Assembly (NCBI GenBank): GCA_951812345.1
Contig: OX638295.1
Coordinates: 2,266,965-2,330,964, forward strand
DNA: 64,000 nt
Direction of reading: 5' to 3'
Source: Rhodothermales bacterium
Lineage (GTDB): Bacteria > Bacteroidota > Rhodothermia > Rhodothermales > VXPQ01
A program made the translations under genes and the position numbers. How positions within the stretch are numbered: the stretch's first letter is position 1; every line of letters starts with the position of its first letter. Shown piece by piece: positions 50,925-55,249 of this stretch. The notes under the pieces are model-generated. The model had not been told where the DNA came from and ran no database searches. It worked only from the letters and a program-made list of their open reading frames with translations.

Positions 50925-51239
50925 GCGTCGGTGGCATGACGGCGTCTTCAGCAAGGAACTTCTGCTTGACGTCACATCCCGGGACGATACCTGCGACACT
51001 GCGTTCAGCATCGGTCTCGACCTGACGAACGCCGCGGTCGGCCGCGCCGACGGCTCCGGACGCTGGCGGCGGCGTTAGCTACCTGCGTCGGACGGCGCTT
51101 CCCGGCGATCGAGGGTGTGGGTGGAGATCAGGGAGTACGCATGCCTTTTCAGGTACGCGGCAACGGCGTTTCCGCTTGCTATTTCACTTGGCGTTCACCT
51201 GGTGTAACGTATATTTTCTGTGTAAAATGTATGTACATA
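50925..51239. other. stretch without a clear gene before the IS copies
   Basis: About 315 bp. A frame from 50926 to a stop at 51078 (SKELLLDVTSRDDTC inside) has coding-like composition but no start and no recognised family; it may be a remnant. The rest, A/T-rich near 51200-51239, shows nothing. Confidence 0.35.
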
Positions 51240-51301
51240 AGAAATGGTCCGAAAAAACCGGACAGTTTTCCCGGCGTTTTTAAGTGTAGCGCTGCGTCGG
51301 G

Positions 51302-52129
51302 TTATGCCGCCTTGGGCAGCGGTTTTCGTTTGTAGAATACGTCATTGGGGATTCTGTTGTCAAGTCCCTGGTGCGGGCGCTCTTCGTTGAAGTAGCGCAG
51401 GTAATCGGCGATTGCCTTCCTGGCCTCGGCCACCGTGTCGTAGGCGCGCCGGTAGACTTCTTCCTGTTTGAGGCTACGCCACAGGCGCTCCACGTACACG
51501 TTGTCCAGCCAGCGGCCCTTGCCGTCCATGGATATACGCACGCCGTGCGCCTTGAGCGCACCCGTGAACGCCTCGGAGGTAAACTGCGCTCCCTGGTCTG
51601 TGTTGAACACCTCCGGCGCTCCGTAGCGGACAATGGCCTCTTCCGTCGCTTCGGCGCAGAAAGAGGCGTCGAGCGTGTTCGAGAGCCGGTGGGCCAGCAC
51701 CTTGCGGCTGTACCAGTCGATCACGGCCACGAGATAGAGAAAGCCTTTCGCCATAGGGATGTACGTAATGTCCGCCGCATAGACCTCGCGGGGCCTTGTC
51801 ACCTTCATGCTTCTTAGCAGATAAGGATATATCTTGTGCCCTTCTCCCGGAGACGACGTGCGGCGCTTAGGGTAGATGGCCCTAAGGCCCATAAGGCGCA
51901 TGTGACGTACGACGCGGCTTCTGGCGATGCGAATGCCTCTCGACTCGAGCTTGCTCTTTATCGTGCGCGATCCGCTTGTGGGGCGCTCCATATAGAGTCT
52001 GTCGATCTCCTTCATGACGGCAAGATTCTCTTCGCTCTCTTGCCGGGGACGGTAGTAGGCCGTCGAACGGCTCAGTTCGACCAGTTTGCACTGGCGAACC
52101 ACGGGCAAGCGATGCGTCGGCGCTATCAT
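51302..52129 (-). CDS. IS3-family transposase OrfB (DDE catalytic domain)
   Basis: 275 residues with an rve integrase core. Seen: VKRT-free N-terminal helix part, DITYIPMAKGFLYLVAVIDW (first Asp), FNTDQGAQFTSEAF (second Asp), ERLWRSLKQEEVY (Glu) and HQGLDNRIPNDVFYKRKPLP. Probably made mainly as an OrfAB fusion through a -1 frameshift from orfA; the -1 frame is open from the slip site to this start. This copy appears functional. Confidence 0.93.
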   Translation of the reverse strand: MIAPTHRLPVVRQCKLVELSRSTAYYRPRQESEENLAVMKEIDRLYMERPTSGSRTIKSKLESRGIRIARSRVVRHMRLMGLRAIYPKRRTSSPGEGHKIYPYLLRSMKVTRPREVYAADITYIPMAKGFLYLVAVIDWYSRKVLAHRLSNTLDASFCAEATEEAIVRYGAPEVFNTDQGAQFTSEAFTGALKAHGVRISMDGKGRWLDNVYVERLWRSLKQEEVYRRAYDTVAEARKAIADYLRYFNEERPHQGLDNRIPNDVFYKRKPLPKAA

Positions 52130-52143
52130 GGCGCGGCGCTCGG

Positions 52144-52434
52144 CTAACGGTCGCGTCCGAGCGCCTTCGATAAAAAATCCTTCTCCATCGACAACTCCCC
52201 GATCTTTGCGTGAAGCGCCTCAATCTTCCTGTCGCGTTCGTCGGGAACGTTGCGGCTTCGAACGAACGCCTCCTCGGCGCTCTCTGTGAGCTGTCTCTTC
52301 CACGATTGTATCTGGTTCGGGTGTACCTCGAAGCGTTCGGCGAGTTCGGCCAGCGTGCTGTCGCCGCGCACGGCGGCAAGGGCTACCTTCGCCTTGAACG
52401 AAGGACTATGGGTTCTGCGTGTGCGTCTCGACAT
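52144..52434 (-). CDS. IS3-family transposase OrfA (HTH/leucine zipper)
   Basis: 96 residues. Seen: [20 protein letters not shown] with [23 protein letters not shown], then a heptad-like leucine zipper [20 protein letters not shown] that pairs with OrfAB. The start at 52434 ([10 protein letters not shown]) is typical; the frame extends 13 codons upstream over the terminal repeat. Confidence 0.92.
52171..52177 (-). promoter_or_regulatory. probable -1 ribosomal frameshift heptamer
   Basis: On the minus strand T TTT TTA in the orfA phase (GAT TTT TTA), 10 codons before the orfA stop. Sliding back one base continues [20 protein letters not shown] into orfB without a stop. This is the usual control of IS3 transposase. 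Confidence 0.7.
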
Positions 52435-52553
52435 GGGTCTTGTCTGGTTGATTGCGTCGGAACAAGGTCGCAACAGTACACCTTAAATTCCTCCGAAATC
52501 TGTCCAATCAACCCGAACCACCTCTGTTTAGCGTCACAGATGGTGAACCTAAG

Positions 52554-52775
52554 CTACAGGGCACGTGGGACCGGAAACCACTCAAATATCGGACTGAACG
52601 GACTCTCCATCGGAAATTTTCTGCAACTGACGGGGATATCCGGATTTTTAATTTTTCTGAAAACTCCGAAATCCAAATAAGGCTTCATATCCAGCAGTCC
52701 ATTCTCCCCATTGTCGAAAGATACTGACAAGACATAATCGTCATCGCACTCGACAGATATCACGGCTGGATGCAT
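52554..52775 (-). CDS. DUF2442 domain protein (probable antitoxin-like partner of DUF4160)
   Basis: 73 residues. Seen: MHPAVISVECDDDYVLSVSF and NGENGLLDMKPYLDFGVF, the DUF2442 core. After FRKIKNPDI the usual family ending with W/NG and LxPE-like residues is not seen, so the tail may be altered by a small indel near 52640. It lies 10 bp after the DUF4160 frame, the normal order for this pair, often described as a possible toxin-antitoxin module. The gene ends 28 bp from the IS3 terminus. Confidence 0.75.
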   Translation of the reverse strand: MHPAVISVECDDDYVLSVSFDNGENGLLDMKPYLDFGVFRKIKNPDIPVSCRKFPMESPFSPIFEWFPVPRAL

Positions 52776-52785
52776 CGAATTGTCC

Positions 52786-53052
52786 TCATTGTAGGGGTTG
52801 AATCTTAAACCGTTCTTCACCATTCATGACGAGTTGCCAGTCTGCCATGAGATCTTCCTGGTGAAGTTCTGCACACGCCAAAACCAACTTGGTCTGCTTT
52901 CTTGGAAGGTTACCGTCAATAATTTCGCAGGTGCGAATATCAACCCGTGCACTATATTCGGCACATTAGACGTGGAAGTGCGGCGATGGATGTTCGCTGG
53001 GATCAAAATACATCCTGACGATGATGCCGTAGAACATTGATATAGTCGGCAC
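52786..53052 (-). pseudogene. DUF4160 gene with in-frame stop
   Basis: From GTG at 53052 the frame reads MPTISMFYGIIVRMYFDP, then EHPSPHFHV and a TAA at 52966-52968, then continues in phase with EYSARVDIRTCEIIDGNLPR and LVLACAELHQEDLMADWQL to a stop at 52786. The two halves match one DUF4160 protein of 88 codons, so a single nonsense change broke it. An ATG at 53037 is an alternative start. Confidence 0.8.
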
Positions 53053-53087
53053 TACAAGATCCTTCATTTAGTCAATGAGTTTCTTCC

Positions 53088-53159
53088 GTACAACGACCAA
53101 GCTCAGCCGCGGACAAGCCGCGTAGCGGATTGGCCGTCGGCTGGAGCGCCGGGTTATGT
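53088..53159 (-). other. attC-like recombination site (integron cassette 3' end)
   Basis: Begins 18 bp after the stop of the membrane-protein gene, same strand. Outer boxes ACATAAC and GTTGTAC; inner arms GCTC(C)AGCCG and CGGCTGAGC pair fully except for one extra base; a second extra A and CGG/CCG pairing follow; the centre (ATCCGCTACGCG region) is variable. These are attC hallmarks. The GTTGTAC box departs from GTTRRRY at one position. Confidence 0.55.
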
Positions 53160-53177
53160 CCCATGCTCACTTGCCAT

Positions 53178-53516
53178 TCACAGGGATAGCTTGTCCTTGG
53201 TGTAAAGTAGTGCTCCTCGAAAAAGGGAATCGTCCGCCTCCCCTTCAGTCTGTTCGAGATAATAATTGATAATAGGCAAGCTCAAATCCCGATACTCCGA
53301 AAATTCGGAGAGCTCGTACACGGCGATGGCCTGCTGCGTGTTGACCAAAGACTTGCCAGCCGCGGTTCGGCCTGCTACCCACTCGAATACACGATGAAAC
53401 TGCTCGAATCTCGTATTCCTTTCCTCTGCTCGCCTTGTGTCTAGGTACTGATACATTGAGAAGAGAAAGGCGGCTATCGCTCCGATTGCAGTCAGATAGG
53501 GTAAATATTTCTCCAT
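53178..53516 (-). CDS. small membrane protein of unknown function (likely cassette gene)
   Basis: 112 residues with GGAGGAGAGAT directly before the ATG, a strong ribosome-binding site that is rare elsewhere here. Seen: one membrane helix at about 5-25 (LPYLTAIGAIAAFLFSMYQY), then a basic turn and a soluble helical domain with RFEQFHRVFEWVAGRT, NTQQAIAVYELSEFSEY and LPIINYYLEQT. It ends just before the attC-like site, as cassette genes do. Base usage is more A/T-rich than neighbouring genes, fitting acquisition. Function unknown. Confidence 0.75.
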   Translation of the reverse strand: MEKYLPYLTAIGAIAAFLFSMYQYLDTRRAEERNTRFEQFHRVFEWVAGRTAAGKSLVNTQQAIAVYELSEFSEYRDLSLPIINYYLEQTEGEADDSLFRGALLYTKDKLSL

Positions 53517-53581
53517 ATCTCTCCTCCGAGCAATGGGTCTCAGAAATGGTCCGAAAAAACTGGACAGTTTTCCCGGCGATT

Positions 53582-54430
53582 TTAAGTGTACTGCCGCGTC
53601 GGGTTATGCTGCCTTGGGCAGCGGTTTTCGTTTGTAGAATACGTCGTCAGGGTTCTATTGTCAAGCCCTTGGTGCGGGCGCTCTTCGTTGAAGTAGCGCA
53701 GGTAGTCGGCGATTCCCTTCCTGGCCTCGACCACCGTGTCGTAGGCGCGCCGGTAGACTTCTTCCTGTTTGAAGCTGCGCCAGAGGCGCTCCACGTACGC
53801 GTTGTCCAGCCAGCGGCCCTTGCCGTCCATGGATATACGCACCCCGTGCGCCTTGAGCGCACCCGTGAACGCCTCGGAGGTAAACTGCGCTCCCTGGTCC
53901 GTGTTGAACACCTCCGGCGCTCCGTAGCGGACAATGGCCTCTTCCGTCGCTTCGACGCAGAAAGAGGCGTCGAGCGTGTTCGAGAGCCGGTGGGCGAGCA
54001 CCTTGCGGCTGTACCAGTCGATCACGGCCACGAGATAGAGAAAGCCTTTCGCCATAGGGATGTACGTAATGTCCGCCGCATAGACCTCGCGGGGCCTTGT
54101 CACCTTCATGCCTCTGAGCAGATAAGGATATATCTTGTGCCCTTCTCCCGGAGACGACGTGCGGCGCTTAGGGTAGATGGCCCTAAGGCCCATAAGCCGC
54201 ATGTGACGTACGACGCGGCTTCTGGCGATGCGAATGCCTCTCGACTCGAGCTTGCTCTTTATCGTGCGCGATCCGCTCGTGGGACGCTCCATGTAAAGCC
54301 GGTCGATCTCCTTCATGACGGCAAGATTCTCTTCGCTCTCCTCTCGGGGACGGTAGTAGGCCGTAGAACGGCTCAGTTCGACCAGTCTGCACTGGCGAAC
54401 TACGGGCAAGCGATGCGTCGGCGCTATCAT
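53582..54430 (-). pseudogene. IS3-family OrfB of copy 2, C-terminal frameshift
   Basis: Nearly identical to copy 1 OrfB through HQGLDNR. One base is then lost relative to copy 1 (near 53650), so the last 20 residues read LTTYSTNENRCPRQ instead of IPNDVFYKRKPLP. The DDE residues are intact. Without its orfA it probably needs help from copy 1. Confidence 0.85.
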
Positions 54431-54449
54431 GGCGCGGCGCTCGGCTAAC

Positions 54450-54630
54450 TGTGACCTCTCAGTAGGTTGTTCGTTTGATCCTGCTGCCCGAATTTATCAG
54501 GGACATGTGAACCTATAACCAGTGAGGGAGCCGAATGAAGATTCACAAGAATGCCCGATTGACGCCGAAAGGTCGAGAGATTCTGGTTTGCCGCATCGTT
54601 AACGAGGGGCTTCGCGTCGAGGAAGCCGCG
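54450..54630 (+). mobile_element. IS481-family fragment inserted in IS3 copy 2 orfA
   Basis: Similarity to IS3 copy 1 stops after GGCTAAC at 54449 and resumes near CATGGCTGCGAGGG at 54631. The foreign piece starts TGTGACCTCTCAG, a plausible IS end, and holds a plus-strand frame from ATG 54535, MKIHKNARLTPKGREILVCR, the standard N-terminus of IS481 transposases. Only 32 codons remain. Confidence 0.75.
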
Positions 54631-54696
54631 CATGGCTGCGAGGGCTACCTTCGCCTTGAACGAAGGACTATGGGTTCTGCGTGTGCGTCTCGACAT
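54630..54696 (-). pseudogene. orfA remnant of IS3 copy 2
   Basis: Codes [20 protein letters not shown] and AMRG as in copy 1, then runs into the IS481 fragment. The HTH and zipper are gone. Confidence 0.82.
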
Positions 54697-54826
54697 GGGT
54701 CTCTTCTGATTGATTGCGTCGGAATAAGGTCGCAATAGTACACCTTAATTTCCGCCGAAATCTGTCCAATCAAACCGAACCACCTCTCATATGTACCAGA
54801 ACGCCGAGAGGCGCGGAAATCACAAC

Positions 54827-55249
54827 ATGCCCAATCAGGTTACCGCCGTTCCTGCCGCATCCTCGCAGGAGGCCGAAGCATACTTCGCCAACAGCTTTGC
54901 CCTGGAAACGGATTGCTGGGACGTGCACGATGCGCTGTCTCGCGGCGCAACGGATTTTGTATTGCTCGATGTGTGCAGCCCCGACTTATACCGGACAGGA
55001 CATGTCCCCGGGGCGCTTTCCCTTCCCCATGGAAAAATCACCAACCACCGTATGCAAGCGTGGTCCGACGACACCCTTTTTGTGGTCTACTGCGCCGGTC
55101 CGCATTGCAACGGCGCGAAGCGCGCGGCGCTTCGCCTCTCCCGCCTGGGGCGCCCGGTCAAGGAAATGACCGGGGGCATAACCGGTTGGGCCGATGAGGG
55201 CTTCTCTTTTGCAACCGGCGAGGAGCCGGGCCGGGTTGGACCTGGATGA
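54827..55249 (+). CDS. rhodanese-like domain protein
   Basis: Single-domain sulfurtransferase-like protein, 140 residues, cytosolic. Seen: FVLLDVCSPDLYRTGHVPGA, SLPHGKI, catalytic loop VVYCAGPHCNGAKRAA with the cysteine, and KEMTGGITGWADEGFSF. The loop CAGPHCNGA carries a second cysteine four residues on. The ATG at 54827 fits the family; a frame opens at 54791, right at the IS boundary. The IS3 insertion sits where the promoter should be, so expression may depend on the IS. Confidence 0.88.
   Translation: MPNQVTAVPAASSQEAEAYFANSFALETDCWDVHDALSRGATDFVLLDVCSPDLYRTGHVPGALSLPHGKITNHRMQAWSDDTLFVVYCAGPHCNGAKRAALRLSRLGRPVKEMTGGITGWADEGFSFATGEEPGRVGPG

Follow-up and report, generated by a model that had tools for sequence, protein, structure and literature searches.

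A probable remnant of an integron cassette array between two IS3-family copies in a Rhodothermales genome

A Rhodothermales genome (one contig, 2.82 Mb) carries, between two IS3-family copies, a short palindrome that follows a small gene and precedes another, in the manner of an integron recombination site. Whether this palindrome is a true attC site, and how cassettes could have come to lie in a genome devoid of an integron integrase, was examined in the window, the whole stretch of 64,000 nucleotides that was analysed, and in related genomes. The segment at 52526-53541 very probably derives from an integron cassette array, of which it would be a degraded, integrase-less piece with two cassettes and one attC. 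The integron-cassette interpretation of the original prediction is thus supported in substance, with some of its details corrected below.

The 72-bp element and its attC features

The element occupies 53088-53159, with the minus strand as cassette sense. Integron integrases use the attC bottom strand as their substrate, which here is the window plus strand. The outer boxes had been predicted as ACATAAC and GTTGTAC and are present on the minus strand as R'' (53159-53153) and R' (53094-53088), respectively. Both cores of the attC motifs RYYYAAC and GTTRRRY, AAC and GTT, are there; R'' deviates once from its motif (A at position 3), as does R' (T at position 5), and the two boxes pair at four of their seven positions. 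The inner stem is composed of GCT, CAGCCG, and CGG (53101-53112) facing CCG, CGGCTG, and AGC (53134-53147), which gives the architecture of an attC: a paired L''/L' stem, an unpaired central spacer of 6/5 nt, and a hairpin top. The paired inner arms had also been foreseen, but with a single extrahelical base, while there are two, T53137 and G53144, both on the R''-L'' arm of the plus strand, i.e., the attC bottom strand. An extrahelical G in L'', which is conserved, together with a T 6-8 nt away has been described for such sites (PMC2727003), and by their agreement with this description the bottom-strand features of the element are canonical.

The plus strand has a predicted fold of -23.5 kcal/mol (z = -4.3), unmatched by any of 200 dinucleotide shuffles, and the minus strand folds less well (z = -1.8, dinucleotide shuffles). 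When shuffled window sequence was scanned for boxes plus stem, one equally good match was found in 1.92 Mb (one-strand), corresponding to a chance expectation of approximately 0.07 such sites in the window. A run of T is absent downstream of the element, and the rest of the genome has no near-identical copy of it, just short chance matches.

Since an Rfam search of the region around 53088-53159 returned no family, a covariance model was built from scratch with 22 attC sites from other genomes of the order and none from this genome, picked from 20 fetched integron regions and the first integrase loci. The model recovered 87 sites at E <= 1 in the fetched integron regions, training sites included, and it also detected class 1 attC sites outside the training set, namely those of aadA1 (43.5 bits), aadA2 (35.0), and cmlA1 (27.1). 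Its sensitivity is limited, as no match was given for the dfrA15 and aac(6')-Ib cassettes. In the window search, the element matched over the full model length with 42.2 bits (E 4.7e-10), followed by a runner-up with 13.8 bits (E 0.18); genome-wide, it was the sole match at E <= 10 (E 2.1e-8) among the 150 of 1,486 first-look candidates that were scored, all E-values being rough owing to a short calibration. The covariance-model check proposed with the original prediction, run here with a model not trained on the site, therefore places it above background, and under this one model its bit score is close to that of the aadA1 attC. The resemblance to the aadA1 attC of class 1 integrons (NZ_LT985253.1, L128) extends to the extrahelical G and T six bases apart and to the short terminal loop, whereas the aadA1 site is 60 bp long rather than 72 and has other R boxes and cargo. 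Judged by its sequence and predicted structure, the 72-bp element is an integron attC site.

The cassette genes and the IS3 frame

The gene of the first cassette is an orphan ORF of 112 amino acids (53178-53516, minus strand, taken from the ORF list) with a hydrophobic N-terminal stretch, and its end is separated from the attC by 18 bp (53160-53177), as described in the original prediction. Cassettes commonly carry orphan genes. No convincing relative of this ORF was found among 114 genomes of the order and a sample of 394 from the phylum, nor in plasmids, viral contigs, or GTDB contigs, and a lone 30% match (E 0.009) was disregarded. It gave a LapA_dom match below the cut-off in Pfam and none in NCBIfam and PHROGs, and its single-sequence structure prediction was poor (pLDDT 55).

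The ORF, the attC, and the next gene all lie on one strand. This next gene, the first of cassette 2, encodes a DUF4160 (DhiT-type toxin) protein (52787-53052, minus strand; PF13711, E 3.8e-21 with X in place of the stop), followed by a gene for DUF2442, a DhiA-type antitoxin (52554-52775, minus strand; PF10387, E 4.3e-8). The claim that DUF4160/DUF2442 begins right after the site, as a next cassette would, holds for the position, the GTG start at 53052 lying 35 bp beyond the attC, but the genes appear to form a broken toxin-antitoxin module. The DUF4160 gene is a pseudogene, its reading frame broken by one in-frame TAA (52966-52968). The PF10387 match of the DUF2442 gene covers profile positions 1-42 of 72, and in a tblastn search with an intact relative the homology stops at residue 44, with the C-terminal part lost. 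Owing to these two lesions, the module looks broken at the sequence level. For the dhiTA (DUF4160/DUF2442) toxin-antitoxin genes, growth inhibition and regulation of their own promoter were demonstrated in Dickeya and E. coli (PMC8198452), and on plasmids of Thermus the DUF4160/DUF2442 pair has been put forward as a type II system (PMC12724237). The window shares with dhiTA of Dickeya dadantii the adjacent genes and their order, DUF4160 before DUF2442, but differs in that both genes are damaged and the pair is not intact (PMC8198452).

The heptamer GCTAAAC (52526-52532, minus strand), located 21 bp past the DUF2442 stop, abuts the IS end at 52525. Its contact with the IS3 end had been noted correctly; its reading as the first half of a second attC, truncated by the IS, is only suggestive. 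It has the AAC and the initial R of an R'' box, but its position 4 is A where Y is expected, and no L box remains. GCTAAAC may, as a guess, be where the attC of cassette 2 began.

The left IS3-family copy (51240-52525, minus strand; NF033516) has open orfA and orfB, with ends set by other copies, and the right copy (53542-54787, minus strand; repeat families D1-D3) is interrupted at 54453-54624. Both are in direct orientation and bracket 1,016 bp (52526-53541), an arrangement of two copies as in a composite transposon. The IS ends, AGAAATGG and CCACCTCT, were defined with the help of a copy elsewhere in the genome that is 99.8% identical and flanked by GAT repeats. This copy (L084, G000:C1:1395027-1396321), a 99.8% match to the left copy, is nested in another copy of the family and has GAT as its target repeat, and the identity points to recent IS movement. 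The right copy shares 95.6% identity with it over 912 bp. Neither window copy has repeats of its own flanks; the outer flanks of the pair are both CATA (51236-51239 and 54788-54791), 4 bp long, versus the 3-bp target repeats (GAT, ATT) at two other copies of the IS. The shared CATA flanks suggest composite transposition but do not prove it. An empty site was sought in five genus mates, but a search for the left outer flank gave no match in them. Targeting of attC sites by the IS was also considered and dropped, as another copy lies within an IS copy.

In the right copy, approximately 170 bp of foreign sequence at 54453-54624 replaces part of orfA; it contains an ORF (MKIHKNARLTPKGREIL...) that presumably resembles the N-terminus of an IS481-type transposase, although NCBIfam gave no match for it. 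To the right of the pair lies a rhodanese-like gene (54791-55249), of which the genome contains another copy (G000:C1:477501-477923, 91% identity at the DNA level); three genus mates carry relatives of it.

Integrons in the genome, the genus, and the order

No integron integrase was predicted for the window, and none was found above the TIGR02249 cut-off in the window or in the genome. Partial IntI matches of the genome were rejected as IntI, their best scores being those of XerC/XerD-type recombinases. The further attC sites that had been suggested for a genome search were likewise not found among the candidates scored. The genus was sampled with this genome and five others, and these five have no IntI above the cut-off, no attC at E <= 0.01, and no DUF4160.

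At the level of the order, a complete integron was reported from Salinibacter ruber M1 (PMC9024848). Among 114 Rhodothermales genomes, 41 were found to have IntI above the curated cut-off, in several copies in some, and 52 to have attC (covariance model, E <= 0.01). The two are associated, with attC in 29 of the 41 IntI genomes versus 23 of the 73 without IntI (Fisher p 8e-5). In the Rhodothermales arrays (L032-L051), attC sites are mostly 113-136 bp long, and some are short (55-72 bp). Of the 29 DUF4160 loci found elsewhere in the order, nine have a same-strand attC within the 1.5-kb flanks, namely L100, L102, L103, L108, L110, L115, L122, L124, and L126, of which L108 and L115 are weak. Two attC sites enclose a DUF2442 ORF followed by a DUF4160 ORF in both L100 and L103. 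With the antitoxin first, these two cassettes have the reverse of the order seen in the window and in Dickeya dhiTA. On the strength of these pairs and of the same-strand attC near DUF4160 loci, the DUF2442/DUF4160 pair is plausible as cassette cargo in the order, though in opposite gene order. A background score and a lack of cassettes in relatives had been named as outcomes that would tell against the original prediction; neither was observed, the order being rich in integrases, attC, and DUF2442-DUF4160 cassettes.

Origin and meaning of the fragment

The fragment would consist of a first cassette, the 112-aa ORF with its own attC, and a second, a DhiTA-type pair that is now broken and whose own attC would have been lost or cut away. 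Acting on the folded bottom strand (window plus strand), an integrase of the source integron would have cut at R' and joined the cassettes in their present order, and the IS3 copies would then have bracketed the fragment, severing the cassettes from the integron. As the genome lacks an integron integrase, the attC cannot recombine unless an integrase comes from outside. Past integrase action and a role of the IS pair are inferred, as is that the cassettes came from another bacterium with an integron, probably one of the order Rhodothermales. Against the array reading stand the single attC, hence no repeated array, the imperfect R' box and the partial pairing of the R boxes, the difference between the 72 bp seen here and the 113-136 bp usual in the order, and the orphan ORF without cassette relatives.

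That the palindrome is an ordinary hairpin, e.g., a terminator, with attC likeness by chance is very improbable. It does lie 18 bp past a stop codon and has a high G+C content, and false positives are known among single attC calls (PMC9024848), but its full-length score is far above that of the window runner-up (42.2 versus 13.8 bits), the R boxes, the spacer, and the extrahelical T and G are all present, no T run comes after the palindrome, and DUF4160 pairs are cassettes in related genomes. Two histories of the fragment were weighed. The IS pair could be a composite transposon that took both cassettes elsewhere and brought them as one unit, an extension of the cassette-array reading that is held tentatively, at somewhat under an even chance. 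In its favour are the direct copies that lack repeats of their own flanks yet have CATA at both outer ends, the five genus mates without attC and IntI, and the 99.8% identity of the left copy with another genome copy, a sign of recent IS movement; on the other side, the other copies show 3-bp repeats instead of 4, a 4-bp match arises by chance in 1 of 256 cases, the window copies are several percent apart with the right one decayed, and no match to the left outer flank turned up in the genus mates that could have shown the empty site.

Possible to a similar degree, and again short of even, is that the cassettes are the last remains of an integron that the lineage once had, which the genus has lost and which insertions of the IS have worn down where it stood. 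In favour of this are the wide occurrence of integrons in the order, the decay of both cassette 2 genes, and the abundance of this IS and its fragments in the genus; however, none of the five genus mates retains IntI, attC, or DUF4160, no attC lies outside the IS pair, and the rhodanese-like gene of the right flank is also present in genus mates. The IS and its fragments are abundant in the genus, and the closest relatives of its transposase are in MAGs named Rhodothermales. Because the IS is thus well established in the genus, it is more likely that the pair picked up foreign cassettes than that it arrived with them. The wider proposition, that an IS3-family composite transposon carries integrase-less cassettes which spread into an integrase-free genus and stay attC substrates for a later integrase, is rather unlikely.

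Among known systems, the degraded-array reading is closest to CALIN, attC clusters without an integron integrase that are thought to be degraded integrons (IntegronFinder, PMC9024848). The window shares with them attC and cassette genes in a genome without integrase but has one attC. By default, IntegronFinder 2 calls CALIN from two attC sites, as single calls include false positives, although single-attC ones can be true (PMC9024848); under this rule, the locus would go unreported. The IntI of a complete integron is lacking. The chromosomal integrons of Rhodothermales belong to the same order, have attC sites that fit the same covariance model, and include some DUF2442-DUF4160 cassettes, but here the integrase and most of the array are gone, and their attC sites are mostly 113-136 bp long. 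ISHahl1 beside the CALIN of Halorhodospira halochloris (PMC7923331) is similarly an IS next to TA-rich integrase-less cassettes in a genome without intI, but it is a single IS200/IS605 copy with ten cassettes, in contrast to two IS3 copies around two cassettes.

The gain from a single site is modest, and the locus, though clear, is a fairly ordinary relic of a known kind; cassette remnants that lack an integrase are common. Both integrases and attC sites are plentiful in the Rhodothermales, and little on such integrons was found in the literature searched. DhiTA-type toxin-antitoxin genes are integron cassettes in this order, and cassette fragments occur in a lineage without an integron of its own, for which IS pairs are a possible vehicle.
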